Positions 27,993 to 64,000 of a DNA stretch of 64,000 nt are shown here, one piece after another. Where the stretch lies: assembly GCF_001685415.1 (NCBI RefSeq), contig NZ_CP014989.1, positions 2,170,001-2,234,000 of the forward strand, given 5' to 3'. The notes beneath the pieces are model-generated. The model did not search any database, was not told the origin of the DNA, and saw only the letters and a list, made by a program, of their open reading frames with translations. This DNA comes from Serinicoccus hydrothermalis. GTDB lineage: Bacteria > Actinomycetota > Actinomycetes > Actinomycetales > Dermatophilaceae. Position 1 is the first letter of the stretch; each line of letters starts with the position of its first letter. The position numbers and the translations under genes are program-made.

Positions 27993-28757
27993 TCAGCAGT
28001 CAGCCGCGATCAGACCCTCCGCCCGGGCCCGTCCCCGGTAGATCGCCCGCCGGAGCTCGATCGCATACTCCTCCTGCTCCGGGGCGCCCAGCCGCCGGGC
28101 CGCCGCGACCTCCCCCTCGATGTCGTAGGCCACCCGCACGAACTGCAGCCCGAAGGGCTCGTCCGGCCCGCCGTCCACCGCCCCCTCGACGATGACATAG
28201 GACGCGGACGGCTCGTCGAGTGAGTTGCCGACGCTGCCGACGTTGAAGAGCGTCAGTCCACGCCGCACCTTGAGGTATGCCGCGTGGATGTCGCCGTAGC
28301 CGACCACCGTCGGCGTCGGACCCTCGCCCGTCGCCTCAGTCGCCGCGAACATCCCGTCGAACTCCTCGTCGCTGTGCTGCTGGAACACCCTGGTCAGGAT
28401 GCTCCCGGCCGAGGCGTGCAGCAGGCGCAGCCGACGACCACTGACGGTGAGGTCGTGGCAGAACGGCAGCCGCGTGAGCCACTCGCGCTGACCGGGCCGC
28501 ATCTGGTCGCGCCACCACCGCCCGGCCGACTCGAGCTCCACGTCAGGGCGCCCCAGGAAGTGGTCCCAGTTCCCGAGAACGGTGACCTCGCACCTCTCCT
28601 GGGTGAGCTCGATGCACTCGGCCCCCCGCGGCCCCTTGCCCACGAGGTCCCCGAGGTTGAGCACCCGGGTGATCCCCCGCCGCTCGATGTCATCGAGGAC
28701 CGCCCGGTATGCCGTGAGGTTGCCGTGGACGTCGGAGACGAGGGTGAGGCGGTCCAC
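27993..28757 (-). CDS. Metallophosphoesterase (YfcE/MPP-like)
   Basis: A calcineurin-like phosphoesterase of about 254 residues with metal motifs LVSDVHGN, NLGDLVGKGP, GNWDHFL, GYGDIH and NVGSVG in order. It probably acts on a phosphodiester or phosphomonoester. I prefer the GTG at 28757 (VDRLTLVSDVHGN), the normal family start; an ATG at 28814 adds 19 Pro/Thr-rich residues and would overlap the divergent promoter. Confidence 0.82.
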   Translation of the reverse strand: MDRLTLVSDVHGNLTAYRAVLDDIERRGITRVLNLGDLVGKGPRGAECIELTQERCEVTVLGNWDHFLGRPDVELESAGRWWRDQMRPGQREWLTRLPFCHDLTVSGRRLRLLHASAGSILTRVFQQHSDEEFDGMFAATEATGEGPTPTVVGYGDIHAAYLKVRRGLTLFNVGSVGNSLDEPSASYVIVEGAVDGGPDEPFGLQFVRVAYDIEGEVAAARRLGAPEQEEYAIELRRAIYRGRARAEGLIAADC

Positions 28758-28803
28758 GAACGTCAGTATGCCGGTGGCCGTGGTCGCCGGCGGCGGACGA
28801 CCG

Positions 28804-28833
28804 TTGACATGCAAGCGTGGACTTGCCTATTCT
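28804..28833 (+). promoter_or_regulatory. Leaderless arsR promoter with internal operator
   Basis: A perfect -35 TTGACA (28804-28809) and -10 TATTCT (28828-28833) are 18 bases apart. Transcription would start at about 28840, the first base of the GTG, so the mRNA should be leaderless. The spacer carries the dyad GCAAG-N6-CTTGC (28811-28826), a good repressor site. Confidence 0.75.
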
Positions 28834-28839
28834 TCCGCT

Positions 28840-29115
28840 GTGGGAGACATCTACGCGGCACTGGCGGATCCCACGCGACGACTCGTCCTGGACGAGCTGC
28901 AGCGACGGGACGGGCAGACCCTCTTCGAGCTCTGCGCCCGGCTCGTCACCGTGCACAGAGTGAGCATGACGAGGCAGGCCATCTCGCAGCACATCTCGGT
29001 GCTGGAGTCGGCAGGCCTGGTCGAGACAGCACGAGCCGGCCGCAGCAAGGTGCACCACTTCACCCCCTCGCCGTTGCGCGAGATCCACGACCGCTGGCCG
29101 GTCGACCCCACCTGA
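28840..29115 (+). CDS. ArsR-family helix-turn-helix regulator
   Basis: A 91-residue winged-helix protein: IYAALADPTRRLVLDEL, then MTRQAISQHISVLESAGLV (recognition helix) and HHFTPSPLREIHDRW. It has no metal-binding Cys motif. It belongs to the group often coupled to VOC or SRPBCC enzymes; the VOC gene follows eight bases later. The GTG 28840 start is set by the promoter; the longer upstream frame is a shadow. Confidence 0.85.
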   Translation: MGDIYAALADPTRRLVLDELQRRDGQTLFELCARLVTVHRVSMTRQAISQHISVLESAGLVETARAGRSKVHHFTPSPLREIHDRWPVDPT

Positions 29116-29123
29116 GGAGCCTC

Positions 29124-29537
29124 ATGAACCCCGTGATCACGCACACGTCCGTCTACGTCGACGATCAGGCGCAGGCGCTGACCTTCTACACCACCGTCCT
29201 CGGATTCGTGACGAAGACCGACATCCCTCTCGGCGACGACCGATGGCTGACCGTCGTGGGCAGCGAGGACCCCGACGGGGTCGAGCTGCTGCTGGAGCCC
29301 TCAGGTCACCCTGCCTTCCGGTCGTTCAAGGACGCCCTCGTCGCCGACGGCATCCCGCTGACGATGTTCGGTGTCGAGGACGTCGATGCCGCCTACGCGG
29401 AGCTGACGGACAAGGGCGTGCGCTTCACGCAGCCACCCACGGACATGGGCGCGGTGCGTACCGCGGTGCTCGACGACACCTGCGGCAACCTCATCCAGCT
29501 CACCCAGATGCTCGAGGCTGGAAGCGGCGAGATCTGA
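29124..29537 (+). CDS. VOC (glyoxalase/bleomycin resistance-like) family protein
   Basis: A 137-residue protein with the paired beta-alpha-beta-beta-beta units of the vicinal oxygen chelate fold: VYVDDQAQALTFYTTVLGF at the start and VLDDTCGNLIQLTQM at the end. Gene order ArsR-VOC as one operon suggests a stress or xenobiotic response. A GAGG lies seven bases before the ATG. It ends five bases from the converging aminotransferase gene. Confidence 0.85.
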   Translation: MNPVITHTSVYVDDQAQALTFYTTVLGFVTKTDIPLGDDRWLTVVGSEDPDGVELLLEPSGHPAFRSFKDALVADGIPLTMFGVEDVDAAYAELTDKGVRFTQPPTDMGAVRTAVLDDTCGNLIQLTQMLEAGSGEI

Positions 29538-29542
29538 GCCGG

Positions 29543-31583
<2,041 letters not shown>

Positions 31584-31587
<4 letters not shown>

Positions 31588-32456
31588 CCACGATGTCCCC
31601 GCGTGCCGAGCGCGCACTGGCGCTCACGACCACGCTCGCGACCCGGCACGGACTGCCGACCGACGACCTCCGCGTGCTGCACGACTCGTTCAGCGTGATC
31701 GTCCACCTCGCGCCCGCCCCCGTCGTGCTGCGGGTGCCGACGCTGACCGTGGTACCGCTCGCCGACGACGTCGCGCAGCGTCAGCGCGAGCTCGACGTCT
31801 CGGCCTGGCTCGTCGAGCAGGACTTCCCCGTCGTCGCGCCCAGCGACCTGCTGCCCCCGACGGTGCATGTCGTCGAGGGCGTCGCCATCACCGCCTGGCG
31901 CTGGGTGGAGCACCGCGACGAGGGCTTCGAGGCGGAGGTCTTCCTGCGGCGTATGCCTCTGGTCGCCCGGCTGCACCGGGCGCTCGAGGACTACCCCGGC
32001 GACCTCGCGGAGTGGGTGCCGCTCGAGGGCTGCGAGTCGATGCTCGACGACGTGGCCGCTTCCGAGGCCCTGCCCGGCGAGGACGTCGCCCGCGCCCGGC
32101 GGGAGCTGGCGGTCGTGCGCGAGCGCTGCTCGGCGGTCGACGGCCTGGTCCCGACCCACGGCGACGCGCCCTACTACAACGCCCTGGTCACCCCGCACGG
32201 CACGCTCGTCGGTGACCTCGAGCACGTCGGGCTGGCACCGCTGGAGTGGGACCTCGTGGGTTGCTCGGAGGAGATGCTGGAGGCATACACCGCGGCCGGG
32301 GGAGCGACCCCCGACCCCGAGCGCCTCAGCCTCATGGCCGTCGCCCGCAACGTCCAGCTCGTCGCCGCGCACGCCTTCGTCGCCTCCGTGCCCGAGCTCG
32401 GTCCCGGGATGGCGCCGCTGATGCAGGCCTGGCGCGAGACCCCCGAGATCACCTGA
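31584..32456 (+). CDS. APH-family phosphotransferase
   Basis: A 290-residue kinase-like protein: VVLRVPT (phosphate loop strand), THGDAPYYNALV (catalytic loop) and GDLEHVGLAPLEWDL (metal-binding loop). The substrate is unknown. It is translationally coupled to the PIN toxin gene (31584-31587), which is unusual for a kinase; the coupling may be accidental. Confidence 0.78.
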
Positions 32457-32525
32457 GCGCCCATCACCCGAATTCGAGGGGCTCTACCCCGCCGCAGGGT
32501 CGGAGCCGTCAGCGGTATGCCGGGG

Positions 32526-33116
32526 TCAGGCGGGCTCGACCGTCGTCACCATGACGCAGTTCTTCAGCCCCTTGGGCCGGTCGTAGGTGAACCCGAGCCG
32601 CTCGTAGAGCCGCCGCGTGCCGTTGTAGAGGAACGAGGACGACATCTTCTTCGTCTGGTTCGTCAGGTCGTGCGGGTAGCTCTCCACCACCCCGCCGCCG
32701 GCCCGCGCGACCATCTCCAGCGCGCCGGTGATCGCCAGCTCGGTCACGCCCCGCCGCCGGTATCGCCGGTCGACGAAGACGCAGGTGATCCGGAAGTCCG
32801 GGTCCCCGCTCTTCTCCGCGTCGTACTGCTTGCGGTGGTGGATGTTGGGCAGCTCCTCCGGCGGGCCGTACTCCGCCCAGGCGATCGCCTCGTCACCGTC
32901 CATGACCAGCGCCGCGTGTGCCCTGCCCTGCTCGACGTAGGCCTTCTTCATCGCCCGGCTGCCCTCGTAGCCCGGCCCGCGCTCGGCGCACGAGGGATGG
33001 AAATGGGTGCACCAGCACCCGCCGAAGATCCCGTTGTGGCGCTCGACCAGGCCCGCGAAGGCGTCCCAGGTCTGCGGGCTCAGCGGCTCGATCCGGTATG
33101 CCGTGTCCGTCGCCAT
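32526..33116 (-). CDS. GNAT-family N-acetyltransferase
   Basis: A 196-residue protein with the acetyl-CoA loop in FVDRRYRRRGVTELAITGAL (V-x3-R/Q-x-R/G-x-G/A type) and a Cys-His-rich early segment (GGCWCTHFHPSC). Substrate unknown. Confidence 0.82.
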   Translation of the reverse strand: MATDTAYRIEPLSPQTWDAFAGLVERHNGIFGGCWCTHFHPSCAERGPGYEGSRAMKKAYVEQGRAHAALVMDGDEAIAWAEYGPPEELPNIHHRKQYDAEKSGDPDFRITCVFVDRRYRRRGVTELAITGALEMVARAGGGVVESYPHDLTNQTKKMSSSFLYNGTRRLYERLGFTYDRPKGLKNCVMVTTVEPA

Positions 33117-36487: not shown

Positions 36488-38107
36488 ATGGCTCACGAGC
36501 ACTCCCACGATCACGACCACTCCTCGCGACCTCCTGTCGAGCGCCACTGCGACGTGGCCGTGATCGGCGGCTCGGCGGCCGGGCTGGCGGCGGCCCTGCA
36601 GCTCGCCCGGCAGCGCCGCACCGTGGTGGTCGTCGACGACGGCACGCCCCGCAACGCACCGGCCGCGCACATGCACGGCTACCTCGGCCGCGAGGCGGCA
36701 CCGCCCTCCGAGCTCGTCGCCGTGGGTCGCGAGGAGGTGCGCCGCTACGGCGGTGAGGTGCTCACCGGCCGGGTGCTCGCCGTCCGGCCCGCCGCCGACG
36801 GACGCTTCCGCGTCGAGCTGAGCGGCGGGCATACCCTCCTCGCGCGCCGCGTCCTCGCCGCCACCGGGATCGTCGACGAGCTTCCCGACATCGAGGGGCT
36901 CGCGTCGCGCTGGGGGCAGGACGTCATCCACTGCCCCTTCTGCCACGGCTACGAGGTGCGCGACCAGCGCCTCGTCCAGGTCGTCACCCACCCGATGGGC
37001 CTCCACCCGACCCCGCTGCTGCGCCACCTCACCGACCGCCTCACCGTCGTGCTGCACGGCCTCGGCGACCTCGACGAGACCGCCGCGACGGCCCTGGACG
37101 CGATCGAGACGGCTGGCGTTACGGTCGAGCGCACCGACGTCACCCGCCTCACGACTCACCCGGACGGCTCCGTCGCGGGCGTCGAGCTGGCCGACGGTCG
37201 CACGCTCGAGGCCGACGCCGTGATGGTCGGCACCCGCTTCCGCGCCCGGCTCGACGCGCTGGCCCCGCTCGGGCTGGAGCCCAGCGCGCACCCCAGCGGC
37301 CTGGGTGAGGTGCTGGGGGTGGACCCGATGACCGGGCAGACCGCCGTCGCCGGGGTGTATGCCGCGGGCAACCTCACCGACCCCTCGCTGCAGGTGCTGC
37401 CCTCGGCGGCGCACGGCAGCCGGGTCGGCGCGATGATCGCCTTCAGCCTCGCCGACGAGGACCTGCGGGCCCGCGCCCGCACCTCGGGCGAGGAGGGCGA
37501 CTGGGACGCCCGCTACGGCGGCGAGCGCATGTGGAGCGGCAACCCCAACGGCACCCTCGTCGCCGAGGTGGAGGGTATGCCCCCCGCCCGCGCCCTCGAC
37601 GTCGGCGCCGGGGAGGGTGGGGACGCTCTCTGGCTGGCCGGGCGCGGGTGGGAGGTCACCGCCACCGACATCTCCGGTGCCGCGCTGCGGCAGGTCGGTG
37701 ACGCGGCGCAGAGCCGCGGCCTGGACGTGACGCTGCTGCACACGGACGCCAACGCCCCGGCTGCCTACGGCGGCAGCACCTTCGACCTGGTGTCGCTGCA
37801 GTACGGCTCCTTCCTGCGCACCCCGGAGCAGCGCGGGCTGCGCAACCTGCTGGGCGCGGTCGCCCCCGGCGGCACGCTGCTCGTCGTCAGCCACGACCAG
37901 GCGCCGATGCGCGAGCCCGTCGACCCGGCAGAGCAGACCCGGATGTGGGACCCGGAGGCATACCTCGGGGTGGAGGAGATCGCCGCGGCGCTGGCGCAGG
38001 AGCCGGGCTGGACGGTGCAGGTCCACGAGACCCGGCCCCGCCCGGCAGGTGCCGCCTCGACCCACCACGTCGACGACGTCGTGCTCCGGGCGGTCCGCAC
38101 CGGCTGA
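36488..38107 (+). CDS. Fusion of thioredoxin-reductase-like flavoprotein and SAM methyltransferase
   Basis: A 539-residue protein. It starts with a His-rich tag (HEHSHDHDH), then a TrxR-like FAD domain: VIGGSAAGLAAALQLA, redox pair CPFCHGYE (near 140) and VYAAGNLTDPS (near 290). From about 340 a class I methyltransferase follows with DVGAGEGGDALWLAGRG and VTATDISGAAL. The CxxC family includes dithiol oxidases such as gliotoxin oxidase; S-methylation would block the same thiols, so the fusion may protect or modify a reactive dithiol or selenium/tellurium species (inference). A divergent XRE-cupin regulator lies upstream. Confidence 0.85.
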   Translation: MAHEHSHDHDHSSRPPVERHCDVAVIGGSAAGLAAALQLARQRRTVVVVDDGTPRNAPAAHMHGYLGREAAPPSELVAVGREEVRRYGGEVLTGRVLAVRPAADGRFRVELSGGHTLLARRVLAATGIVDELPDIEGLASRWGQDVIHCPFCHGYEVRDQRLVQVVTHPMGLHPTPLLRHLTDRLTVVLHGLGDLDETAATALDAIETAGVTVERTDVTRLTTHPDGSVAGVELADGRTLEADAVMVGTRFRARLDALAPLGLEPSAHPSGLGEVLGVDPMTGQTAVAGVYAAGNLTDPSLQVLPSAAHGSRVGAMIAFSLADEDLRARARTSGEEGDWDARYGGERMWSGNPNGTLVAEVEGMPPARALDVGAGEGGDALWLAGRGWEVTATDISGAALRQVGDAAQSRGLDVTLLHTDANAPAAYGGSTFDLVSLQYGSFLRTPEQRGLRNLLGAVAPGGTLLVVSHDQAPMREPVDPAEQTRMWDPEAYLGVEEIAAALAQEPGWTVQVHETRPRPAGAASTHHVDDVVLRAVRTG

Positions 38108-40681: not shown

Positions 40682-41816
40682 ACCGGGCCGCCTGCCGGGT
40701 CAGGTGGTCGCGCTCGGCGGTGCTGCTCGCGCGGGCGGCGGCGCGGGCATACAGCTCCGCGGCCTGGGTGGTCTCGCCGGAGCGTTCGAGGAGGAAGGCG
40801 TGCGCCGCCTCACGCCGGGGTATGCCCTCGGGCACCTCCTCCAGCGCGCGCAGCCCGGCCTGCGGGCCGTCCGCCTCGCCCACCGCGACCGCCCGGTTGA
40901 GGGCGACCACGGGGCTACCGGTGAGCGCGAGCAGCTCGTCGTACCAGCCCACGACCTGCGGCCAGTCCGTCTCCTGCGCGCTCGGGGCGTCCGCGTGCAG
41001 CGCGGCGATCGCCGCCTGCGCCTGGAACTCGCCGAGCCGGTCGGCGGCCAGCGCCGCGTGGAGCAGGTCGACCGCCTCAGCCGCGAGCGCCGTGTCCCAG
41101 CGGGAGCGGTCCTGGTCGGCGAGCGTGACGAGGGAGCCGTCGGCGGCGAAGCGGCTGGCGCGCCGCGCGTGGTGGAGCAGCATGAGCGCCAGCAGCCCCG
41201 TGGCCTCCGGGTCGTCGGTCTGCCCGACGAGCTCCCGGGCGAGCCGGATCGCCTCGGCGGCGAGGTCGACCTCGCCGCCGTAGCCCTCGTTGAAGACGAG
41301 GTAGAGCACCCGCAGCACCCGGCCGAGGTCGCGCTCGCCCTCCGCGTCGAGCCCCTGCTCGGCGATGGTGCGTTTGGCCCGGCTGATCCGCTGGGCCATC
41401 GTCGACTCGGGCACGAGGTATGCCTCCGCGACCTGGCGCGTGGTCAGCCCGCCGACCGCACGCAGCGTCAGCGCCACGGCCGAGGAGGGGCTGAGCGCGG
41501 GGTGGCAGCACAGGAAGAGCAGGTGGAGGGTGTCGTCGGCCTGCTCGGTCGGCCCGGGCGGCGGCTCCTCCAGGTCGGCCCGCTCGCGCCGGTGCCGGGC
41601 CGACTCCGAGCGCACGTGGTCCAGCCACCGGCGCCAGGCGACGGTGACCAGCCACGCCTGCGGGTCCGACGGCATACCCTCCGGCCAGCGGGTGACCGCC
41701 TCGATGAGGGCCTCCTGCACGGCGTCCTCGGCCGACGCGAAGTCTGCTCCGCGCCGGACGAGGACGCCCAGCACCCGGGGGCCGAGCTGCCGCAGCAGGT
41801 CCTCGACGGTGGTCAT
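40668..41816 (-). CDS. ECF42-type sigma factor with C-terminal TPR-like extension
   Basis: A 382-residue protein with sigma region 2 (FASAEDAVQEALIEAVTRWP), region 4 (LTTRQVAEAYLVPESTMAQR) and a long helical C-terminal extension (about 190 residues), the layout of ECF42 sigma factors. These do not use an anti-sigma; they pair with a DGPF/YCII protein, found one base upstream here. It would direct RNA polymerase to its own small regulon. Confidence 0.88.
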   Translation of the reverse strand: MTTVEDLLRQLGPRVLGVLVRRGADFASAEDAVQEALIEAVTRWPEGMPSDPQAWLVTVAWRRWLDHVRSESARHRRERADLEEPPPGPTEQADDTLHLLFLCCHPALSPSSAVALTLRAVGGLTTRQVAEAYLVPESTMAQRISRAKRTIAEQGLDAEGERDLGRVLRVLYLVFNEGYGGEVDLAAEAIRLARELVGQTDDPEATGLLALMLLHHARRASRFAADGSLVTLADQDRSRWDTALAAEAVDLLHAALAADRLGEFQAQAAIAALHADAPSAQETDWPQVVGWYDELLALTGSPVVALNRAVAVGEADGPQAGLRALEEVPEGIPRREAAHAFLLERSGETTQAAELYARAAARASSTAERDHLTRQAARFRSR

Positions 41817-45257: not shown

Positions 45258-45518
45258 TCAGTCGAGCCCGCGGAGGTCGTCGGTGCTGCCCTCGGTGATC
45301 CAGGCCAGGTCCTCCGCCAGGCTCGGGTCCGGCTGCTGGCGGTCGAGGAGGGCGACCAGGTCCTCGCGGGGTATGCCCGGACGGCGCTGCGCCTGGACCC
45401 GCCGCAGCTCGGCGACCGGCCGTCCGTGAACGGTGACGGTGTAGACCTCGCCCCGACCCACCTCGGCCAGGACGCTCGAGGTGTGGTTGCGCAGGTCCCG
45501 CGAGGCGATCGTCGGCAT
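45258..45518 (-). CDS. Phd/YefM-type antitoxin
   Basis: An 86-residue protein starting MPTIASRDLRNHTSSVLAEV, the Phd fold, with HGRPVAELRRV and an acidic C-terminal tail. Its stop is one base before the toxin GTG. Confidence 0.85.
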   Translation of the reverse strand: MPTIASRDLRNHTSSVLAEVGRGEVYTVTVHGRPVAELRRVQAQRRPGIPREDLVALLDRQQPDPSLAEDLAWITEGSTDDLRGLD

Positions 45519-45618: not shown

Positions 45619-46614
45619 ATGGCGAGCAACCAGTCGACGCGGATCCGCCGGGCGGTGGCGCGGTATGCCGCGGGCCACGAGGCCCTGAGGGCCGCCACCG
45701 ACGCCTACGTCGGCGTCGTCACCCGGATGTTGGACGACGCGGGCATCAACTACCTCGCGGTGAGCGGGCGGACCAAGAGCGTGGAGTCCTTCGCCGGCAA
45801 GGCGGCCCGGCGCAGCCGTGGGGGCCGGCTCGTCCATCCCAAGCCGCTCACCGACATCACCGACCAGATCGGCGTCCGGGTCGTCACCTACGTGCAGGCC
45901 GATGTGGACGCCGTCGCCCAGCTCCTCGCGGCGCAGCTCGACGTGCGCGACGACCGCGACATGGGCCAGGAGACCGCGGCGGAGGGACGCTTCGGCTACT
46001 CCAGCCGCCACCTGCTCGTGGCCCTGGACGAGGAACGGGCGCGGGAGGCGGGCATACCCCCGGAGCAACCCGCGTCGGTCCAGATCCGCACCGTGCTGCA
46101 GCACGCGTGGGCCGAGTTCGAGCACGACATCCGCTACAAGGGGTCGGTGCCGGAGGAGCACGCGCACGACTTCGACCGCCGCTTCACCCTCGCCGCCGGG
46201 CTGCTGGAGCTGGCCGACCAGCAGTTCACCGCGATCCGGGACCGGCACCGCGAGGAGCTGACGTCGCCGGCCGACGCCCTCGACGACGACCCGCGGATCA
46301 GCCCCACCGACCTCGCGGCCTTCCTCGCGGGCCAGTTCGTCGACGCCGGGTGGTCGCGCACCGATCACTACGCCTGGATCAGCGGCCTGCTGCTCGAGCT
46401 CGGGATCAGCTCGTTGTCCGAGCTGCGCGAGGTGCTGCGCGACGTCGACGTCGAGGACATCGAGGCACGGATGGGCTACCGCTACCCGCCCGGTGCCGTC
46501 CGCCGGCTCGACGACTCCCTGCTCCAGGTCTTCGGGGACAGGTATGTCGCTCTGCACGGCAACGCGCACCGCCAGGACCTGCTCACCACCCGGCTGGCGC
46601 GGCTGCACGCCTAG
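45619..46614 (+). CDS. Small alarmone synthetase (RelA/SpoT synthetase domain)
   Basis: A 331-residue protein with the (p)ppGpp synthetase fold: GRTKSVESFAGKAARR, LTDITDQIGVRVVTYV, FGYSSRHLLV and VQIRTVLQHAWAEFEHDIRY. No hydrolase (HD), TGS or ACT domain is present, so it is a stand-alone synthetase; the C-terminal 120 residues are helical and unassigned. It makes (p)ppGpp from GTP/GDP and ATP in stress. It is next to a divergent toxin-antitoxin pair. The start is ATG 45619. Confidence 0.88.
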   Translation: MASNQSTRIRRAVARYAAGHEALRAATDAYVGVVTRMLDDAGINYLAVSGRTKSVESFAGKAARRSRGGRLVHPKPLTDITDQIGVRVVTYVQADVDAVAQLLAAQLDVRDDRDMGQETAAEGRFGYSSRHLLVALDEERAREAGIPPEQPASVQIRTVLQHAWAEFEHDIRYKGSVPEEHAHDFDRRFTLAAGLLELADQQFTAIRDRHREELTSPADALDDDPRISPTDLAAFLAGQFVDAGWSRTDHYAWISGLLLELGISSLSELREVLRDVDVEDIEARMGYRYPPGAVRRLDDSLLQVFGDRYVALHGNAHRQDLLTTRLARLHA

Positions 46615-48262: not shown

Positions 48263-49285
48263 ATGACCACCATGCCCCGTCTCGACGACACGGCGCTGTC
48301 AGCAGCCGCCGCGGAGGACGGTTTCAGCGGTCTCGTCAGCCTCGACGTCCCCGGGCACGAGCCGGTGACCCGCGCCTTCGGGTATGCCGAGCGCGCCTTC
48401 CAGGTGCCCCACTCCCGGTCCACCCGCTACGCCCTCGCCAGCGGCGGCAAGACCTTCACCGCTCTCGCGGTGCTGCGGCTGGTCGAGCAGGGGCGGTTGC
48501 GCCTGGACGAGCCGGTGCGCGGCGTGCTGGGCGAGGACCTGCCGCTCGTGGACGACGCGGTGACGCCCCTGCACCTGCTGAGCCACACCTCCGGCATCGG
48601 TGACTACCTGGACGAGTCGGCCGGGTGGGAGATCGACGACTACGTGCTGCCCGTGCCCGTCCACACCCTCGTCGACGCCGAGGCCTTCCTGCCCGTGCTG
48701 GACGGCTACCCCCAGGCCTTCGCCCCCGGGGAGCGCTTCGCCTACTGCAACGGTGGCTACGTCGTGCTGGCGCTGGTCGTGGAGCGGCGCAGCGGCCAGG
48801 GCTACCAGCGGTTCGTCGAGGAGGAGGTCTGCGGGCGGGCCGGATTGACCAGCACCGGGTTCCTGCGCAGCGACGAGCTGCCCGCGGACGCGGCACGGGG
48901 CTACCTCGACGCCACCGGACTGCGCACCAACGTCCTGCACCTGCCCGTCCTCGGCAACGGTGACGGTGGCATCGTCAGCACGGCGCCGGACCTGCACCGC
49001 TTCTGGGGCGCCTTGCTGCAGGGGCGCATCGTGGGTCCGGCGCTGCTCGAGCTGCTCACCACGCCGCGGCACGACGTCCCCGACGAGGGGCTGCGGCACG
49101 CCGCCGGTCTCTGGCTGCACGCCACCGCACCCCTGCTGGTGATGGAGGGCTGCGACGCCGGGGTGTCCTTCCGCTCCACGCACGACCCCGCGACGGGCGC
49201 GACCCTGAGCGTGCTCGGCAACACCTCCACCGGGGCCTGGCCCGTCATCGGTGAGCTGGTCGACCTGCTGGTCGCGGCTGGTTAG
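48263..49285 (+). CDS. Beta-lactamase-family serine hydrolase
   Basis: A 340-residue protein with the class C-like active site SGGK (in LASGGKTFTALAVL, near 61) and YCNGGY (YxN, near 161). It has no signal peptide, so it is likely cytoplasmic and acts on an ester or amide rather than on antibiotics. AGGAGG precedes the ATG. It overlaps the converging gene by four bases. Confidence 0.85.
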   Translation: MTTMPRLDDTALSAAAAEDGFSGLVSLDVPGHEPVTRAFGYAERAFQVPHSRSTRYALASGGKTFTALAVLRLVEQGRLRLDEPVRGVLGEDLPLVDDAVTPLHLLSHTSGIGDYLDESAGWEIDDYVLPVPVHTLVDAEAFLPVLDGYPQAFAPGERFAYCNGGYVVLALVVERRSGQGYQRFVEEEVCGRAGLTSTGFLRSDELPADAARGYLDATGLRTNVLHLPVLGNGDGGIVSTAPDLHRFWGALLQGRIVGPALLELLTTPRHDVPDEGLRHAAGLWLHATAPLLVMEGCDAGVSFRSTHDPATGATLSVLGNTSTGAWPVIGELVDLLVAAG

Positions 49286-49905: not shown

Positions 49906-50766
49906 TCAGAAGACCGGCTTGCCCCCGGTCACCCCGAGCACCGTGCCGGAGACGTAGCTCGCCTCGTCGGAGGCCAGGAAGACGTAGGCCGCGGCCACCT
50001 CGACGGGGTGCCCGGCCCGACCCAGCGGGGTGTCCGAGCCGAAGCCCTCGACCTTGTCGGCGGCCATGGTCGCCGGGATGAGCGGGGTCCAGATCGGGCC
50101 GGGGGCGACGGCGTTGACCCGGATGCCCCGCGGTCCCAGCTCGGCCGCCATGTTGACGACGAGGTTGTTGAGCGCGGCCTTGGTGGCGGCGTAGTCGAGC
50201 AGGTGGTCGGACGGGGAGTAGGCCTGGACCGAGGTCGTGACGATGACCGACCCGCCCGGGCTCAGCTCCTCGGCCAGCTCGCGCACCAGCCAGAACGGCG
50301 AGAAGACGTTGGTCGCGAAGGTCCGCTCGATCTGCTCGGGCGGGAAGTCCTCGAGCAGGTCGTGGGTCATCTGGTATGCCGCATTCGCCACCAGAACGTC
50401 GAGCCCGCCGAGGGCCTTCACGGCGTCCCGGGCCAGCTGCTCGTTGGCGTCCCGCCGGGTCAGGTCGACGGCGAAGAGATGACAGGTGCCGCCGGCCGCC
50501 TCGACCAGCTCGCGCGTGCGCTCGGCGTCCTCCTGCTCCTGCGGCAGGTGGGCCACCGCGACGGCCGCGCCCTCCTGGGCGAAGGTCAGCGCGACCGCGC
50601 GACCGATGCCGGAGTCACCGCCGGTGACGAGCGCCCGCCGACCGGTCAGGCGGTCCCGGCCGGTCCACGACTGCTCGCCGTGGTCGGGTTGCGGGTCGAG
50701 GTCGGCGACCCGGCCCGGCCAGTCCTGGTGCTGACCGGGGAGTGCGGACAGGTCTGCTCTGGTCAT
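49906..50766 (-). CDS. Short-chain dehydrogenase (YghA/stress SDR type)
   Basis: A 286-residue SDR with an N-terminal extension (DWPGRVADLDPQPDHGEQ), typical of the stress-linked YghA/YdaD group. Cofactor loop is TGGDSGIGRA, catalytic residues are Ser in TTSVQAYS and YAATKAAL. It lies 33 bases downstream of katE and has GGAGAA at good spacing, so the two probably form one stress operon. Confidence 0.88.
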   Translation of the reverse strand: MTRADLSALPGQHQDWPGRVADLDPQPDHGEQSWTGRDRLTGRRALVTGGDSGIGRAVALTFAQEGAAVAVAHLPQEQEDAERTRELVEAAGGTCHLFAVDLTRRDANEQLARDAVKALGGLDVLVANAAYQMTHDLLEDFPPEQIERTFATNVFSPFWLVRELAEELSPGGSVIVTTSVQAYSPSDHLLDYAATKAALNNLVVNMAAELGPRGIRVNAVAPGPIWTPLIPATMAADKVEGFGSDTPLGRAGHPVEVAAAYVFLASDEASYVSGTVLGVTGGKPVF

Positions 50767-57578: not shown

Positions 57579-57602
57579 CGGGTCCTCCTTCGGGTATGCC
57601 GG

Positions 57603-59693
57603 TCAGATGGCCAGGCAGAGGCGCAGGGCGTCGTAGGTGGCGGCGTGGATGTTGCGGCTGGCGACGGCGTCGCCGATCCGGAAGAGCTGGAAGCCGGTGC
57701 CCGGCGAGAGCGCGGCGCCCGCCCCGCCGGGAGCGGCCAGGGCTGCCGGGCCGCTCCCGGCGCCCACGAGCTGGGGCTGCACCGCGAGCAGTGCCTCGTG
57801 GTCGACGGCGCCGCCGTTGACCGAGAGCGGGGCCATCTCGTGGTAGAGGTCGTCGTTGGGCAGCGTGCCGTGCTCCACGACGACCTGGTCCACCCGCCGC
57901 TCGACCTCCGCGCCGGAGTAGTCGTGCCGCAGCCGCGCGACCAGCCCGCCCTCGGGGTGCCGGGCGACCCCGACGAGGCGGGTGGCGAGGGTGACCCCGA
58001 CGTGGTGCTCGTCGAAGGCCCGCAGGTAGGCCGGTGAGTTCATCCCGCCGACGAGCGGGGCCAGCATCCGCTCGGGGGTGACGAACTGCACCTGCGCCCC
58101 GCGGCTGGCGAGCAGCTCGGCGGCGTCCACCCCGGGCTCGGCGCCGTTGTCGTCGTAGACGAGCACGGTGCCGCCGGAGCGCACCTCCCCGGACATGACG
58201 TCCCAGGTGTCGCGCACCAGCCCCTGGCCCTGCGCGAGGAAGGTGCGGTTCGGCATACCCCCGGTCGCGACAATGACGACGTCGGGCTCCTCGGCCAGCA
58301 CGGTCTGCGCCTCGGCGAAGACCCCGAGGCGCAGGTCGACCCCGGTGTGCTTGAGCTCGCTGACCCGCCAGTCGACCACCCCGATGAGGTCGCGGCGGCG
58401 GCTCGGGCGGGAGGCGAGCCGGACCTGCCCGCCGGGCAGGTCGTCGGCCTCGAGGATGACGACGTCGTGACCGCGCTCGCCGAGCACCCGGCCCGCCTCC
58501 AGCCCGGCCGGGCCGGCGCCGACGACGACGACCCGGCGGCGCACCGGCGCCGGCGGGACGACGTGGCTGAGGGTGAGCTCGCGGCCGGTCGCCGGGTTGT
58601 GGATGCACTTGGCGTCGCCGGACTCGTAGATCGCGTCGAGGCAGTAGTTGGCGCCCACGCAGGGCCGGACCCGGTCCTCCTCGCCCGCGGTGATCTTGGC
58701 GACGAGGTAGGGGTCGGCCATCTGCGGACGGGTCATGCCGACGAGGTCGAGCAGGCCGTCGCGGATGGCGTGCCGCGCGGTCGCCGCGTCGGTGATCCGG
58801 GAGGCGTGCATGACCGGGATGTCGATCTCGCGGCGGATCTGCCCGGCGAACTCGAGGAAGGGCGCCGAGGGGGTGCCCATCGACGGGATCACCTTGGACA
58901 GTGTCGCGTCGCTGTCGATGGTGCCCTTGATGACGCTGAGCAGGTCGACGCCGTCCTCGGTGAAGGCGCGCAGTGCGGTGAGCGCCTCCTCCTGCTGCAG
59001 CCCGTCCGGCCGGTCCTCGTCCATGGACATCCGGATCGCCAGGACCGGCTGGGGGCCGAGGGCCTCGCGCACCGCGCGGATCACCCGGCGGGGGAAGGCC
59101 ATCCGGTGCTCCAGCGAGCCGCCCCACGCGTCGTCCCGGTGGTTGGTGGCGGGGGAGAGGAAGGCGTCGAGCAGGTGCCCGTAGCTCTGCAGCTCGATGC
59201 CGTCCAGGCCACCCTCGACGCAGCGCTGCGCGGCGCTGACGTAGTCGTCGACGATGCGGTCCAGGTCCCACTCCTCGGCGACCTTGGGGAAGGCCCGGTG
59301 CGCGGGCTCGCGCAGCGGGGAGGGGTAGACCGTCGGCAGCCAGTCCGCGGTGTAGTTGCTGGTCCGCCGCCCGAGGTGGGTGACCTGGCACATCACCGCC
59401 GCCCCCTCCTCGTGCACGGCGTCGGTGAGCCGGCGCATCCACGGCACGATCTCGTCGCGGTGCAGCTCGAGGTTGCCGAAGGCCGGCGGGCTGTCGCGGG
59501 CGATCACGGCCGAGCCGCCGATCATCGTGAGCCCGACGCCGCCGCGGGCCTTCTCCAGGTGGTAGGCGAGGTAGCGCTCGCGCGGCAGCCCGCCCTCGGC
59601 GTAGGCCGGCTCGTGGCTGGTGCTGACCACCCGGTTGCGCAGCCGCATACCCTTGACCGTGAAGGGGTCCAGGAGTGGGTCGAGGGTGCGCAT
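57603..59693 (-). CDS. DgcA-like NADH:flavin oxidoreductase (TMADH family, N-demethylase)
   Basis: A 696-residue protein of the TMADH/2,4-dienoyl-CoA reductase family: FMN TIM barrel (1-370), iron-sulfur region with CVGANYCLDAIYESG and a later AKCIHNPATG, then FAD domain VVVVGAGPAGLEAGRVLGE. In TMADH the cluster uses C-x2-C-x3-C-x11-C; here the second Cys is Ala. It would demethylate the secondary or tertiary amine made by the Rieske step. It is the first gene of the three-gene operon, 25 bases before gbcA. Confidence 0.82.
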   Translation of the reverse strand: MRTLDPLLDPFTVKGMRLRNRVVSTSHEPAYAEGGLPRERYLAYHLEKARGGVGLTMIGGSAVIARDSPPAFGNLELHRDEIVPWMRRLTDAVHEEGAAVMCQVTHLGRRTSNYTADWLPTVYPSPLREPAHRAFPKVAEEWDLDRIVDDYVSAAQRCVEGGLDGIELQSYGHLLDAFLSPATNHRDDAWGGSLEHRMAFPRRVIRAVREALGPQPVLAIRMSMDEDRPDGLQQEEALTALRAFTEDGVDLLSVIKGTIDSDATLSKVIPSMGTPSAPFLEFAGQIRREIDIPVMHASRITDAATARHAIRDGLLDLVGMTRPQMADPYLVAKITAGEEDRVRPCVGANYCLDAIYESGDAKCIHNPATGRELTLSHVVPPAPVRRRVVVVGAGPAGLEAGRVLGERGHDVVILEADDLPGGQVRLASRPSRRRDLIGVVDWRVSELKHTGVDLRLGVFAEAQTVLAEEPDVVIVATGGMPNRTFLAQGQGLVRDTWDVMSGEVRSGGTVLVYDDNGAEPGVDAAELLASRGAQVQFVTPERMLAPLVGGMNSPAYLRAFDEHHVGVTLATRLVGVARHPEGGLVARLRHDYSGAEVERRVDQVVVEHGTLPNDDLYHEMAPLSVNGGAVDHEALLAVQPQLVGAGSGPAALAAPGGAGAALSPGTGFQLFRIGDAVASRNIHAATYDALRLCLAI

Positions 59694-59737: not shown

Positions 59738-59757
59738 AGTGCACGTTCTCGTGCACA
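59738..59757. promoter_or_regulatory. LysR binding site between dgcA-like and lysR genes
   Basis: GTGCAC, six bases, GTGCAC (59739-59744 and 59751-59756): two palindromic hexamers spaced as one LysR site with a T-N11-A core, between the divergent genes. It sits ten bases before the LysR start. Probable operator for both. Confidence 0.5.
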
Positions 59758-59765
59758 CTGGCTGC

Positions 59766-60665
59766 ATGATCGACCGGCGCCTGCAGGTGCTGCGGATGGT
59801 GGCCCAGCGCGGCAAGGTGACGGCTGCCGCGGAGGCGCTCAGCTACACCCCCTCGGCGGTCTCCCAGCAGCTGCGCGCGCTCGGGCGCGAGCTCGGGGTG
59901 GAGCTGCTGGTGCAGGACGGTCGCGGGGTCCGGCTCAGTCCCGCGGCCCAGGTGCTCCTGGACCGCACCGACGACCTGGTATGCCGGTGGGAGGAGATCC
60001 GCGCCGAGGTCGCCCGGGTGGCGCGGACCGGGGGCGGGGTGCTGCGGCTGGCCGGCTTCTCGACGGCCGCGTCAGCCCTGCTCCCGGGGGTGGCGGCACG
60101 CGTCCGCGCCGAGGTCGGGAGCGAGGTGCAGATCGTCGAGGCCGACCCGGAGGAGTGCTTCGAGCTGCTGCTCACCGGCCGCGCCGACGTGGCGGTCGTC
60201 GTGGCCCTGTCCGGCCTGCCGGCCAGCACCGACCCGCGCTTCGAGCAGCGCGCCCTGCTCGAGGACCCCATCGACCTGCTCGTGCACGACGGCCACCCGC
60301 TCGCGGGGAGGGAGTGGGTGTCCCTGCGTGACCTGGCCGGCGAGCGCTGGATCATGGACCGGCCGGGGCGGCCCTACCACGAGCTGCTCCAGACGGCCTG
60401 CACCGGCGCCGGCTTCACCCCCTCGGTCGCGCACTACGCCGCGGAGTGGGACACCGGGGCGGCGCTGGTCGGCGCGGACCTCGGCATCGCCCTCATCCCG
60501 CGCCTGGCGCAGATCCCGGCGGCCTACCCCGTGGTGCGGGTGCCGCTGCACGGTGACCCGGCGCCGGCCCGGCACCTGCGCACCGGCATCCGCCGCGGCA
60601 GCGGCGAGCACCCGGGCGTCGCCACGGCGCTCGCGGCGCTGCAGGAGGCGGCGGCCGGCCGCTGA
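59766..60665 (+). CDS. LysR-type regulator of the betaine-demethylation operon
   Basis: A 299-residue LysR protein: helix-turn-helix MVAQRGKVTAAAEALSYTPSAV pattern at the N-terminus and a substrate-binding domain. Divergence from the dgcA-gbcA-gbcB operon makes it the likely regulator. The start ATG 59766 is the normal family start; the frame upstream is a shadow of the dgcA gene. Confidence 0.88.
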   Translation: MIDRRLQVLRMVAQRGKVTAAAEALSYTPSAVSQQLRALGRELGVELLVQDGRGVRLSPAAQVLLDRTDDLVCRWEEIRAEVARVARTGGGVLRLAGFSTAASALLPGVAARVRAEVGSEVQIVEADPEECFELLLTGRADVAVVVALSGLPASTDPRFEQRALLEDPIDLLVHDGHPLAGREWVSLRDLAGERWIMDRPGRPYHELLQTACTGAGFTPSVAHYAAEWDTGAALVGADLGIALIPRLAQIPAAYPVVRVPLHGDPAPARHLRTGIRRGSGEHPGVATALAALQEAAAGR

Positions 60666-60716
60666 GCCGCTGGGACGGCTTTGGGTCAGGGCGCCCGGCC
60701 CCACGGTCGCGACCCA

Positions 60717-60782
60717 CTCCTACGCAGAAGCTGTTCCTCTGCCCTGATGCATCACCGCAGAGGAACACTTTCTGCGTAGGAG
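60717..60782. repeat. 66-base near-perfect palindrome
   Basis: Outer arms CTCCTACGCAGAA and TTCTGCGTAGGAG match perfectly. A 3-base mismatch zone (T-A pair and G-T wobble, one C-C clash) leads to the inner arms GTTCCTCTGC and GCAGAGGAAC, also perfect. The loop itself is the palindrome TGATGCATCA flanked by CC. It lies 52 bases after the LysR stop, between converging genes, and is much larger than a normal terminator. Confidence 0.75.
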
Positions 60783-60824
60783 TCCGGTGGCTGGCAGCTT
60801 CTGCGGAGGAGTCCGGTGGCTGGC
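60770..60824 (+). repeat. Direct repeat, 26-base unit
   Basis: Two copies of a 26-base unit starting TTCTGCG and ending GTGGCTGGC (60770-60795 and 60799-60824), identical but for one base (T or G), 29 bases apart. The first copy shares its start with the right arm of the 66-base palindrome. The arrangement suggests a small repeat element with partial duplication. Confidence 0.6.
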
Positions 60825-60834
60825 GCGGTCCGCG

Positions 60835-61071
60835 TCAGGACGAGGACGGCGGGGGCGTGCTGCTCGTGGTACCTCCCTGGTCGCCGCCGAGCGCGGCCTG
60901 GCTGGCCTTGTCGCTCGCCGAGCGGATCTGGGAGGAGTACTTGCCCTTGGTCTGCTTGTCGGCGAAGTCCGCGGCCTTGTCCAGGTAGGACTGCGTCTTC
61001 TGCGGGTTCTTGCGGGCGAAGCGACGGGCTGCGCCCAGGGCGGCACCGATCGCGGCGATCCTGCGGGCCAT
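60835..61071 (-). CDS. MT0933-like small protein, copy 2
   Basis: A 78-residue protein very similar to copy 1 (RRIAAIGAALGAARRFARKN, LDKAADFADKQTKGKYSSQI, SDKASQAALG), with a Ser/Thr/Pro tail instead of the peroxidase-overlapping end. Here it follows the peroxidase gene, the reverse of copy 1. Confidence 0.7.
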   Translation of the reverse strand: MARRIAAIGAALGAARRFARKNPQKTQSYLDKAADFADKQTKGKYSSQIRSASDKASQAALGGDQGGTTSSTPPPSSS

Positions 61072-61146
61072 GGTGGTCCTCTCGTCGGGGAAGTGTCCTG
61101 GTGAGGCTCAACGCCCCGGGGCGCGAGAAGTTTCCCGACGCCGTGC

Positions 61147-61635
61147 TCAGGACCCGGTCGGCAGGACCTTCTCGATGTCCGCGCGGATCGCCAAGGGGTC
61201 GGTGGTGGGGGCATACCGTCCGACGACCGAGCCGTCCGGGGCGATGAGGAACTTGGTGAAGTTCCACTTGATCCGGCCGCCGAGCAGGCCCTTCTTCTGC
61301 GAGCGCAGCCAGGCGAAGAGCGGGTGCGCGTCGTCGCCGTTGACGTCGACCTTGGCGAACATCGGGAAGCTCACGCCGTAGTTGCGCTGGCAGAACTCCC
61401 CGATCTCCTGCGCGTCGCCGGGCTCCTGGTTGCCGAACTGGTTGTACGGGAAACCGAGCACGACCAGGCCCCGGTCCGCGAGCTCGCTGTGGAGGTGCTC
61501 CAGGCCCTCGAGCTGCGGCGTGAAGCCGCACCTGCTGGCCGTGTTGACGACCAGGACCGCCCGGCCGGCGTAGTCGCCGAGGTCCTGCTGGTCACCGGTG
61601 AGCGTCTCGGCCTCGAAGTCGTGCAGCGTCGTCAT
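61147..61635 (-). CDS. Glutathione-peroxidase-family thiol peroxidase, copy 2
   Basis: A 162-residue close paralogue of the gene at 53125. Peroxidatic Cys (NTASRCGFTPQ), probable resolving Cys (GEFCQRNYG) and WNFTKFLI are kept, but the Cys of the GFPCNQFG motif is Tyr (GFPYNQFGNQEPG). Yeast Gpx3 does not need that Cys, so activity should be retained. ATG 61635 is used; another lies three codons upstream. Confidence 0.88.
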   Translation of the reverse strand: MTTLHDFEAETLTGDQQDLGDYAGRAVLVVNTASRCGFTPQLEGLEHLHSELADRGLVVLGFPYNQFGNQEPGDAQEIGEFCQRNYGVSFPMFAKVDVNGDDAHPLFAWLRSQKKGLLGGRIKWNFTKFLIAPDGSVVGRYAPTTDPLAIRADIEKVLPTGS

Positions 61636-61648
61636 GGTGCCCATCCCA

Positions 61649-62542
61649 TCACGGGGTCGGGCCGGCGGCCGGTCGGCCCGCCCGGGCGTAGGCCTCCCGG
61701 ACGACCGCGCAGAGCTCGTCGAGGTAGGCCGGCGGGTCCTGGCGCCACCAGATGAGGTGGACCGCCACGGTGGGCGCGTCCCGGAGGCGACGGAAGACGA
61801 CGCCGGTGCGGGAGTACTGCGCCGCGGTCGCCTGCGAGGTGAGACCGATCGCCCGGCCCGCCGCGATGACGGTGAGCCACTCGTCGGTGCCGCGGACCTC
61901 GCGGAATGCCCCCGGGGCCTGCTGCGGGGTCCACAGGTCGGGCGTGGTCGTGCCGGTGGCGACGTCGAGGGCGACGGTCTGCCCGGCGAAGTCGGCCATC
62001 CGCAGGAGGCGCCGGCGGGCCAGCGGGTGCGCGGAGGGCAGCGCGGCCATCCGGTCCTCGTGGCCGAGGAGAGCGCTCGCCAGCTGGGAGACGCCGGGGT
62101 CGCGCCGGACGACGGCCACCTCGGCGATGCCCTCGGTCAGCCCGGCGAAGCGGGTGGCGCTGTTGACGAAGGTGAGCTCGGAGCCGGGGTGGCGGCGCGC
62201 CCACTCGCGCTGCACCGTCGCGGTGTGCCCGCCGAGGGCGGCCCAGGCATACCCCACCCGCACCTCGCGTCCCTCGTCCTGCGCGGCGCGGAGCACCGCC
62301 TCCGCCTCGTCCTGCAGCCGGCGCGCGTGGGCGACGACCCGGCGGCCGGCGACGGTGAGGGTCACGATCCGGCCGCCGCGCTGCAGCAGCCGCACCCCGA
62401 GGGCACGCTCGAGCGCTCCGACATGCCGCGAGACCGAGGCCTGGGTGGTCCGCAGCGCGATCGCGGCGTCGGTGAACGTTCCCTCGTCGACGACGGCGAG
62501 GAAGGAGCGCAGGTCCCGCAGCGAGAGGTCGGCCGGAGGCAT
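61649..62542 (-). CDS. LysR-type regulator of the EamA gene
   Basis: A 297-residue LysR protein with MPPADLSLRDLRSFLAVVDE and ALRTTQASVSRHVGALER, then a full substrate-binding domain. It is divergent from the EamA exporter across 68 bases with a shared operator. Start is ATG 62542, inside the operator. Confidence 0.85.
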   Translation of the reverse strand: MPPADLSLRDLRSFLAVVDEGTFTDAAIALRTTQASVSRHVGALERALGVRLLQRGGRIVTLTVAGRRVVAHARRLQDEAEAVLRAAQDEGREVRVGYAWAALGGHTATVQREWARRHPGSELTFVNSATRFAGLTEGIAEVAVVRRDPGVSQLASALLGHEDRMAALPSAHPLARRRLLRMADFAGQTVALDVATGTTTPDLWTPQQAPGAFREVRGTDEWLTVIAAGRAIGLTSQATAAQYSRTGVVFRRLRDAPTVAVHLIWWRQDPPAYLDELCAVVREAYARAGRPAAGPTP

Positions 62543-62557
62543 ACGAGAAGTGTATGC
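62539..62557. promoter_or_regulatory. LysR operator overlapping its own start
   Basis: GCATAC, seven bases, GTATGC: a perfect dyad with a T-N11-A core that overlaps the LysR ATG and faces the EamA gene. A TATAGA -10-like box follows at about 62582. It also contains one GGCATAC/GTATGC pair of the genome motif. Confidence 0.55.
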
Positions 62558-62610
62558 AGATCCGCTCGCGTGCATTTCCCGTATAGAACTGGTCCTCGCA
62601 GACTGCTGGT

Positions 62611-63591
62611 ATGTCGGTCACGCAGCCCCCCGCCCTCGCCACGGCGCCCCGGTCCCGCACCAGCCCGCGGGACGTGCTGCTCATGCTCACCGCGGCGGCG
62701 AGCACGCAGACGGGGGCCGCGTGGGGCAGCCACGCCTTCCCCGCGATCGGCCCGGCCGGCGTGGTCGCGGTGCGCCAGCTCGTGGCCTCCGCCGTGCTGC
62801 TGCCGCTCACCCGGCCGGCGGTCCACCGGCTGACGCGCGCGCAGTGGCTCCGGGTGCTGTGGCTCGCGGCGATGTTCGCCGGGATGAACCTCGGGCTCTA
62901 CGCCGCGGTCGAGCGGATCGGCCTCGGCCTGGCGGTGACCCTGGAGTTCCTCGGCCCGCTGGCGGTCGCCCTGCTCGGCTCGCGCTCGGTACGCGACCTC
63001 GCGCTAGCTGTGGTCGCCGGGATCGGCGTGTACGTGCTCGTGCTGCCCGGGCCGAGCAGCGACTACCTCGGCGTCGCCTTCGGCCTCGTCGCGGCCGCCT
63101 GCTGGGGCGGCTACATCCTGGCCAACCGCGCGGTGGGCCAGGCGCTGCCGGGGGTGCAGGGGACGGCGCTCGCGACCGCGGTCTCGGCGACGGCATACCT
63201 CCCGGTGCTCGTGTGGCTCAGCGTCACCGGCCGGTTCACGACCGAGGCCTTCGGGTATGCCGTCGTCGCCGGCGTCCTGTCCACCGTCGTGCCCTACACC
63301 CTCGACCTGCTCGTGCTGCGCCGCGTGCCGGCCAGCGTCTTCGGCATCGCGATGAGCGCCCATCCGGTGCTCGCCGCGCTCGTCGGGATGGTCCTGCTCG
63401 GGCAGCTCCTCGCGCTGCACGAGTGGGTCGGCATGGCGGTGATCGTCCTCGCCAACGCCGTGACCATGTCCGGCCTGGGGCGGGGACCGCGGCGCCGCAG
63501 CCCGCGCGAGCGCACCGCCCGACCGGGCACCCCTTCCGTCCGTCGGGCATGCTGGGGTGCAGCCCCAGCCCCAGCCCGAGGAGGCGGATCG
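62611..63591 (+). CDS. EamA/RhaT-family transporter, frame open at its 3' end
   Basis: From ATG 62611 about 300 residues form a ten-helix DMT exporter: two EamA repeats, AAWGSHAFPAIGPAGVVAVR early and GVLSTVVPYTLDLLVLRRVP late. The frame has no stop at the expected end; it continues through an Arg/Pro-rich linker (PRRRSPRERTARPGTPSV) straight into the SRPBCC domain at 63592 and on to the window end. The transporter is probably a metabolite or amino-acid exporter under the divergent LysR. Fusion or internal initiation are both possible. Confidence 0.75.
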
Positions 63592-64000
63592 ATGCGACCC
63601 CTGACCGATGAGGTCACCCTGCACATGGCGGCCCCGCCCGAGGAGGTGTGGGCGCTGGTCAGCGATGTCACGCGGATCGGGGAGTTCAGCCCCGAGACGG
63701 TGGCCGGGCGCTGGACCGGCGGCTCCACCGGGCCGGAGGAGGGCGCGACCTTCGCCGGCAAGGTGGTGCGCAACGGGCGGGGGCCGACCTACTGGACCGC
63801 GTGCAAGGTGACCCGCCTGGAGCCGGAGCGGTTCTTCGAGTTCTCCGTGGGCACGAAGAAGGTCGCCATCAACAACTGGGGCTACCGGCTGGAGCCCTCG
63901 GGCGAGGGCACCGACGTGACCGAGTACTACCGGCTCGAGCCGGTGCTGCCGCTGCGGATCTACTGGGCTCTGCTCGGGCGGCTGCGGGGCCGCACCAACG
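63592..64000 (+). CDS. SRPBCC-family protein, partial
   Basis: From ATG 63592 the frame reads MRPLTDEVTLHMAAPPEEVW and VSDVTRIGEFSPETVAGRW, the start of a START/polyketide-cyclase-like lipid-binding fold, and is still open at 64000 (about 136 residues seen). A perfect AGGAGG lies seven bases before the ATG, so it can start by itself although it is in frame with the upstream EamA gene. It leaves the window. Confidence 0.75.
   Translation, partial: MRPLTDEVTLHMAAPPEEVWALVSDVTRIGEFSPETVAGRWTGGSTGPEEGATFAGKVVRNGRGPTYWTACKVTRLEPERFFEFSVGTKKVAINNWGYRLEPSGEGTDVTEYYRLEPVLPLRIYWALLGRLRGRTN

Follow-up and report, generated by a model that had tools for sequence, protein, structure and literature searches.

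An abundant heptamer spaced strand by strand in Serinicoccus hydrothermalis and its likeness to DNA uptake sequences

Uptake-type watermarks, by which DNA is recognized as self, are known from two Gram-negative families, and words of the highly iterated palindrome type (HIP1) are known from cyanobacteria. Here, a frequent word with the core GTATGCC is described from a 64,000-nucleotide stretch (the window; positions 2,170,001 to 2,234,000) of the genome of the actinobacterium Serinicoccus hydrothermalis (G000; one contig of 3,597,394 bases), and from its relatives. The DNA uptake sequences (DUS) of Neisseriaceae, like GTATGCC, are asymmetric, and published accounts give them ∼900–5900 copies per genome (PMC3630211, PMC2397512). 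DUS dialects are described family-wide round a fixed three-base CTG core (PMC3630211), the corresponding core of the GTATGCC family being GTA. As is the case for GTATGCC, DUS are reported to be missing from some family members, poor in acquired DNA, and placed at about one per 1–1.5 kb (PMC3630211, PMC2397512). The uptake signal sequences (USS) of Pasteurellaceae share with GTATGCC a ∼1-kb spacing, no chromosomal orientation bias, and under-representation in new DNA (PMC7811141, PMC2346458, PMC1939737), whereas the USS word differs and is reported to act irrespective of orientation (PMC1939737). Coding and intergenic densities are nearly equal for GTATGCC, again unlike USS. HIP1 and the alternate HIPs are, like the octamer GGTATGCC (GTATGCC with a leading G), very frequent and lineage specific, with other words in some relatives, but are described as palindromes with cognate methylases (PMC4390886). 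Among the papers listed in literature searches, none dealt with the GTATGCC word or with uptake sequences in Dermatophilaceae. The reading favored here, with slightly less than even confidence, is that GTATGCC is a self-DNA recognition word that would work like the uptake sequences of Neisseria and Haemophilus.

GTATGCC is found 1573 times on the forward and 1604 times on the reverse strand of G000, as compared to 80 and 69 occurrences of the reversed-word control (the same word read backwards, CCGTATG for the core). The octamer GGTATGCC amounts to 2180 copies in 3.6 Mb (1065 forward and 1115 reverse), its reversed control to 11 (4 + 7). Word statistics were obtained from 40 evenly spaced 20-kb stretches, covering 800 of 3597 kb, in which GTATGCC and its extensions rank top among 6-, 7-, and 8-mers. 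The core was counted 760 times in this sample (expected 29 by a dinucleotide and 43 by a trinucleotide model) and the octamer 530 times (expected 9, a 58-fold enrichment, and 19, 28-fold, respectively). A Markov model of the highest order masks the word, as its sub-words are themselves enriched. Position by position, GTATGC tolerates little change, and the first G and the last C act as preferences; TGTATGCC is still enriched 22-fold. The base after GTATGCC is relaxed (402 G and 246 C among 760), the typical form being mostly [G]GTATGCC[G/C], with T rare at −2 and A rare at +7. Since only codon-like periodicity is seen past these flank positions, the word was rejected as the end of a longer repeat element.

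Such a word might arise as a by-product of base composition or of the usage of codons or dicodons, and the Tyr-Ala frame (TAT GCC) is indeed the commonest, accounting for 317 of the 634 coding copies. Genes were called by comparison of all six frames (88% of the 800 kb called coding), and synonymous shuffling within them reduced the GTATGCC copies from 634 to 57.2 (standard deviation 8.4). All six frame-and-orientation classes were enriched, by 6- to 17-fold, and the word is as dense between genes (10.8 per 10 kb, 105 copies) as within them (9.0 per 10 kb, 634 copies), 21 border-straddling copies being assigned to neither. Relatives from other families with similar composition lack the word. 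Codon usage is ruled out by the shuffling result, and the by-product explanation as a whole can practically be discounted. The description of GTATGCC as a genome signature independent of reading frame and gene function, made in an earlier sequence-only reading of the window, is thus borne out in the 800 kb sampled.

Exact recounting of the window reproduced the 28 octamers of that reading, 18 forward and 10 reverse, as well as its 4 cores (GTATGCC or GGCATAC) in the first 28 kb and 39 beyond; 15 of these 43 cores lack the leading G. Few copies are predicted from base composition, as had been stated: dinucleotide-preserving shuffles (n = 100) gave a mean of 0.73 octamers per window and at most 4. 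The right half had also been called about tenfold over-represented. The two parts do differ, by 7.6-fold per kb, but at a genome-wide mean of 0.88 cores per kb the right part is typical of the genome (39 cores in 36 kb, 32 expected) and the left part is a depleted exception (4 cores in 28 kb, 25 expected). Exact matches to GGTATGCC lie on the forward strand at 5803..5810, 22624..22631, 26429..26436, 28274..28281, 28706..28713, 30739..30746, 32514..32521, 33095..33102, 37574..37581, 40819..40826, 41417..41424, 45370..45377, 45662..45669, 48381..48388, 50373..50380, 57593..57600, 59978..59985, and 63254..63261, and on the reverse strand at 30009..30016, 31473..31480, 36828..36835, 37957..37964, 41671..41678, 46051..46058, 58252..58259, 61210..61217, 62246..62253, and 63192..63199.

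Both strands carry the word equally. The 40 stretches of G000 hold 375 forward and 385 reverse copies, with a chi-square over stretches of 20.8, below chance level. With the origin near 2.03 Mb, as inferred from gene positions in common with genome G021, and the terminus assumed opposite, forward and reverse copies number 181 and 205 on one replichore and 194 and 180 on the other, that is, no replication skew on either. Across 60 motif-rich genomes of the family, the strand z score has a standard deviation of 0.82 and a largest value of 2.3. A replication signal, or one for chromosome organization or segregation (a nucleoid-protein site, or a word like the FtsK-orienting polar sequences, KOPS), was among the roles first proposed and would fit a word that is spread over the whole chromosome sample. 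It is disfavored by the lack of strand skew, and the lack of KOPS-type orientation toward the terminus, the independent placement of copies on opposite strands, and the existence of species dialects (both below) also count against it; such a role is considered very unlikely.

Spacing of the word is governed by strand. Adjacent copies in G000 are in opposite orientation 470 times and in the same orientation 250 times (p = 2e-16). With random placement that keeps the number of copies on each strand of every stretch as the reference, same-strand pairs occur at 0.26 (0–60 bp), 0.21 (60–125 bp), 0.34 (125–250 bp), 0.67 (250–375 bp), 0.45 (375–500 bp), and 0.80 (500–625 bp) of the expected density, approaching 1 by 0.7–1 kb, and same-strand intervals of 1–3 kb are in excess. 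Opposite-strand pairs range from 0.71 to 1.42 without trend in both arrangements (largest z 2.1). The same-strand share of pairs within 500 bp is 0.272 for the motif, the lowest among 150 7-mers including the motif (drawn from 187 with 600–950 copies; mean 0.547). The next lowest are GCATACC, an overlap of the motif itself, and then near-palindromes. Fifteen other species, pooled for 446 sites, gave 23 same-strand and 53 opposite-strand pairs within 500 bp. Same-strand copies thus avoid each other within ∼600 bp and opposite-strand copies do not, a new observation, and from this same-strand-only exclusion it follows that each strand has an evenly spaced set of its own. By argument rather than simulation, reading of the duplex blind to orientation should space both strands jointly, while single-strand or polar reading gives the pattern seen. 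A terminator role was rejected, as close opposite-strand pairs occur at chance level only. As a separate observation, two small tandem repeats outside called genes (L070:8704-8764 and L059:17881-17935; 30-bp and 27-bp units) each include a motif copy.

Polar reading is also the basis of a Chi-like signal, by which a resecting helicase-nuclease (AdnAB or another) would be switched from degradation to recombination at correctly oriented GTATGCC. Chi sites of RecBCD and AddAB are short asymmetric words read with polarity. Because breaks have two ends, both orientations would be needed, each evenly spaced; same-strand redundancy within ∼600 bp and opposite-strand independence would be explained, and turnover of sites with kept spacing (below) would fit selection on gap length. 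Against this role, Chi of Escherichia coli and other bacteria is skewed with replication and GTATGCC is not, and the 18- to 58-fold enrichment (core or octamer, by model) is far above Chi levels. Whole-word change within a genus, if the findings for GTAGCGGC and GTACGGCG below hold, would be rapid for a Chi site. RecC, the subunit of RecBCD that reads Chi, was matched in 21 of the 60 motif-rich and 22 of the 40 motif-poor family genomes (p = 0.06, in the wrong direction), and the RecBCD type is disfavored because recC does not track the motif. Another end-processing enzyme remains a candidate, AdnAB being reported only from Actinobacteria (PMC6452273), and a Chi-like role overall is regarded as unlikely.

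The word is widespread in one family. Relatives comprised a genus set of 31 genomes, apparently the Ornithinimicrobium of GTDB in the broad sense, and 119 genomes of the family, which we take to be the Dermatophilaceae/Intrasporangiaceae group. In 30 of the 31 genus genomes, GGTATGCC totals 285–2180 copies and GTATGCCG, the common word of the species samples, 394–1901 (controls up to 293); the remaining genome, Ornithinicoccus halotolerans (G022), has 38 (control 7) and 50 (control 15), respectively. By thresholds set in this analysis, 60 of the 119 family genomes are motif rich, 40 poor, and 19 intermediate, and rich (G442, G494) and poor (G474) genomes coexist in one genus. Outside the family, none of 396 genomes of the order lies much above three times the reversed-word control (highest 217 versus 67, judged by eye), and in a phylum sample of 246 genomes the only outliers are its three family members, the remaining genomes with >100 copies reaching ∼3.5 times control (by eye). 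A codon-shuffle scan of other families (G024, G026–G031, G034, and G036; 13–55 kb of genes each except G026) returned no comparable word, which is weak evidence, since the samples are short and neither the known word of G013 nor GTAGCGGC in a 40-kb part of G022 was picked up by the scan. The reversed control CCGTATG is itself frequent in G430, G415, G509, G110, and others (∼760–1300 copies in these four), perhaps as a second or extended dialect such as CCGTATGCC.

From species to species, individual sites turn over. Loci sampled from the various species were compared by blastn, with matches above 97% identity dropped and both directions of each species pair counted, so that the counts are not independent. 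Exact matches of GTATGCC sites were 18 of 30 (0.600) at 85–97% identity, 10 of 41 (0.244) at 80–85%, and 68 of 239 (0.285) below 80%, as compared to 1928 of 3273 (0.589), 1609 of 3756 (0.428), and 6297 of 24,464 (0.257) for permuted words. Density and spacing are kept, and positions are kept at the level of control words or below.

Dialects were observed in samples of 60–108 kb per species (800 kb for G000). The base before GTATGCCG is mostly G in G000, G002, G004, G010, G011, G013, G016, G038, and G041, and A in Ornithinimicrobium sp. F0845 (G018; 18 of 31); G006, G009, G012, and G014 do not share or favor any one base there. Two bases past GTATGCC, G009 (22 of 40) and G014 (13 of 27) have A, and G013 has T (13 of 15). 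Two motif-poor genomes were read for alternative words, G022 from the genus set and G474 from the 40 poor family genomes. GTATGCC occurs once in 137 kb of G022, where the best frame-independent octamer is GTAGCGGC, with 38 copies in 108 kb (3.5 per 10 kb versus 0.5 in G000; the highest values of other species are 1.75 in G038 and 1.1 in G004) and 13 in 28.9 kb of stretches fetched afterwards. Codon shuffling lowered its 38 copies in genes to 8.2, the best lead of any octamer there. In G022, nine consecutive GTAGCGGC lie on one strand at L123:3525-14909, unlike the alternation of GTATGCC elsewhere, which may be chance or skew. The leading word of G474 is GTACGGCG (52 in 80 kb), found in all six frames, at 15 versus 5.1 after shuffling in the genes of stretches fetched afterwards, and 10 times in the 9.3 kb between genes of all four stretches. 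Both poor genomes read therefore carry other words, and the GTA start is common to GTATGCCG, GTAGCGGC, and GTACGGCG; evidence for such whole-word dialects is weaker than that for flank dialects.

Lineage-specific words that are replaced in some relatives are reminiscent of HIP1, which is similarly frequent and is reported to go with cognate methylases (PMC4390886). One strand of GTATGCC might be modified by a methyltransferase, with copies created and kept through repair or mutation coupled to it; one-strand modification of an asymmetric site could then give strand-wise effects. MmeI-type enzymes modify one strand only at asymmetric sites, and theirs was the sole class of methylase examined. 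This type had no match in G000 and was above cut-off in 12 of 60 rich and 15 of 40 poor genomes, hence does not track the motif, and was rejected. A methylation target alone does not predict strand-wise spacing. In addition, GTATGCC is not a palindrome, and its palindromic neighbors are not strongly enriched in the 800 kb (GGTATACC, 4 versus 1.7 expected; GGCATGCC, 22 versus 49 expected). The methylation or restriction target suggested by the sequence-only reading remains a candidate role, although a rather improbable one, and something other than any of the listed readings is about equally improbable.

Under the favored reading, DNA from relatives would enter by natural transformation through ComEA, ComEC, and Flp/Tad pili, as in Micrococcus luteus, whose transformation is reported to need comEA/comEC and two tad loci (PMC4322843). 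The word on the entering strand would make that strand likelier to be taken in, protected, or recombined; word-bearing pieces would replace word-less pieces, and by this replacement the word would accumulate by molecular drive, a published explanation of uptake sequences (PMC7811141, PMC2397512). A second same-strand copy in an incoming piece would be redundant, because only one strand enters at a time, and a copy on the other strand would not; a change in the reader protein would produce dialects. The strand-wise spacing agrees with reading of the word on the single strand that enters. Strong enrichment, core-fixed dialects, lack of skew, the ∼1-kb scale, and scarcity in a metal-handling region (below) and in prophages resemble uptake sequences. 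A strand preference in gonococcal transformation was reportedly described by Duffin and Seifert in 2012. We know of no report of transformation in Dermatophilaceae. In G000, comEA (SLBB and helix-hairpin-helix domains) adjoins comEC (competence and metallo-beta-lactamase domains), and loci with T2SSE and T2SSF matches encode Flp-type ATPases, the Tad label being a reading of these matches and their neighbors. A PilB-type ATPase was rejected as the common reader, being found in only part of the genus, with none seen in G000 (table read per type by eye, with at most 44 candidates scored per genome).

Several results weigh against this reading. No reader protein was found in G000 or in the family gene comparisons for ComEC, RecC, and MmeI-type enzymes. 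ComEC, present in 29 of 31 genus genomes, was matched in all 40 poor and in 57 of the 60 rich family genomes (the other three being fragmented drafts), and was rejected as a gene discriminating the two classes; if poor genomes use other dialects, ComEC is expected everywhere and therefore has no discriminating weight. Classical uptake sequences are reported to act whatever their orientation (PMC1939737), from which joint spacing of both strands would be expected, and only same-strand exclusion was found. Neisseria DUS are reported to be highly conserved (PMC2397512), and GTATGCC sites, kept no better than control words, are not. Close inverted pairs of the Neisseria-terminator type show no excess over chance in G000. 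For the alternative words, GTAGCGGC is only 5.6-fold enriched in G022 by the trinucleotide model, below several codon-linked words, and its reversed word is nearly as frequent (38 versus 30) and common in all species; the lead of GTACGGCG over other words of G474 is small, GTACGACG being nearly as strong (14 versus 4.4); and strand-wise spacing was not seen for either at small numbers (5 same-strand and 4 opposite-strand pairs in G022, 7 and 13 in G474). Unlike DUS, GTATGCC belongs to a Gram-positive actinobacterium, is spaced on the same strand only, turns over between species, and comes without a terminator-type excess of inverted pairs or a known ComP-like reader. Because orientation-shared spacing and site conservation were not found, the word is only likened to a DUS and is not filed as one. 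Somewhat more tentative still is the proposal that a GTA-core family of words (GTATGCCG, GTAGCGGC, GTACGGCG), read on single strands and evenly spaced as one set per strand, represents the first DNA self-recognition mark, or watermark, of Gram-positive bacteria.

The comEC gene was also found to harbor prophages. In G002 and G017, comEC is interrupted by a prophage of ∼40 kb, in which a large serine recombinase adjoins the 3' part, the ends lying at about L111:2200 and L112:11310 (G002) and L113:2540 and L114:3975 (G017); part of the reading of the comEC locus used a gene caller that took antisense frames. Both prophages enter at codons of the conserved SGxNV stretch, and comEC is broken into Pfam pieces close to this position in G459 and G493, and possibly in G510. 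As prophages and Pfam breaks fall close together, comEC seems to be a phage attachment site, like comK in Listeria. These two prophages, partly read, contain 3 copies of the word in 34.5 kb, with 3 in 13.5 kb of flanks and 25 in a 60-kb sample of one host. In G014 (L110:5041-7946), comEC is a 666-residue frame matching Pfam domain positions 1–110 only, with no gene called in the ∼900 bases that follow; this copy is possibly broken.

The window itself divides into a motif-poor, metal-handling segment at 1..27000 (4 cores versus ∼24 expected) and a segment of normal genome density at 27996..64000 (39 cores). Pfam scans of raw open reading frames (in one scan, 8 of 10 had no match, several of them being antisense) identified in the left part a multicopper oxidase, CtaG/CopD, ResB, an apolipoprotein N-acyltransferase or similar protein, VKOR, a P-type ATPase, and a pyridine-nucleotide flavoprotein. 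The flavoprotein appears mercuric-reductase-like and the P-type ATPase a putative metal-handling one, and the translations suggest CcdA-, CDF-, and ArsR-like proteins as well. G+C is slightly lower in this part of the window. The metal-handling and cytochrome-biogenesis cluster was probably acquired horizontally, and recently.

If the favored reading is true, it would suggest that self-marking of DNA arose again in Gram-positive cells, and the word would point to natural transformation in a large environmental family, for whose genera its spellings might be of use in transformation. Reading on single strands would also be a new mode, since known uptake sequences are read without regard to orientation. 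In systems of this kind generally, strand-wise spacing offers a quantitative means that can tell orientation-blind reading apart from polar or single-strand reading.

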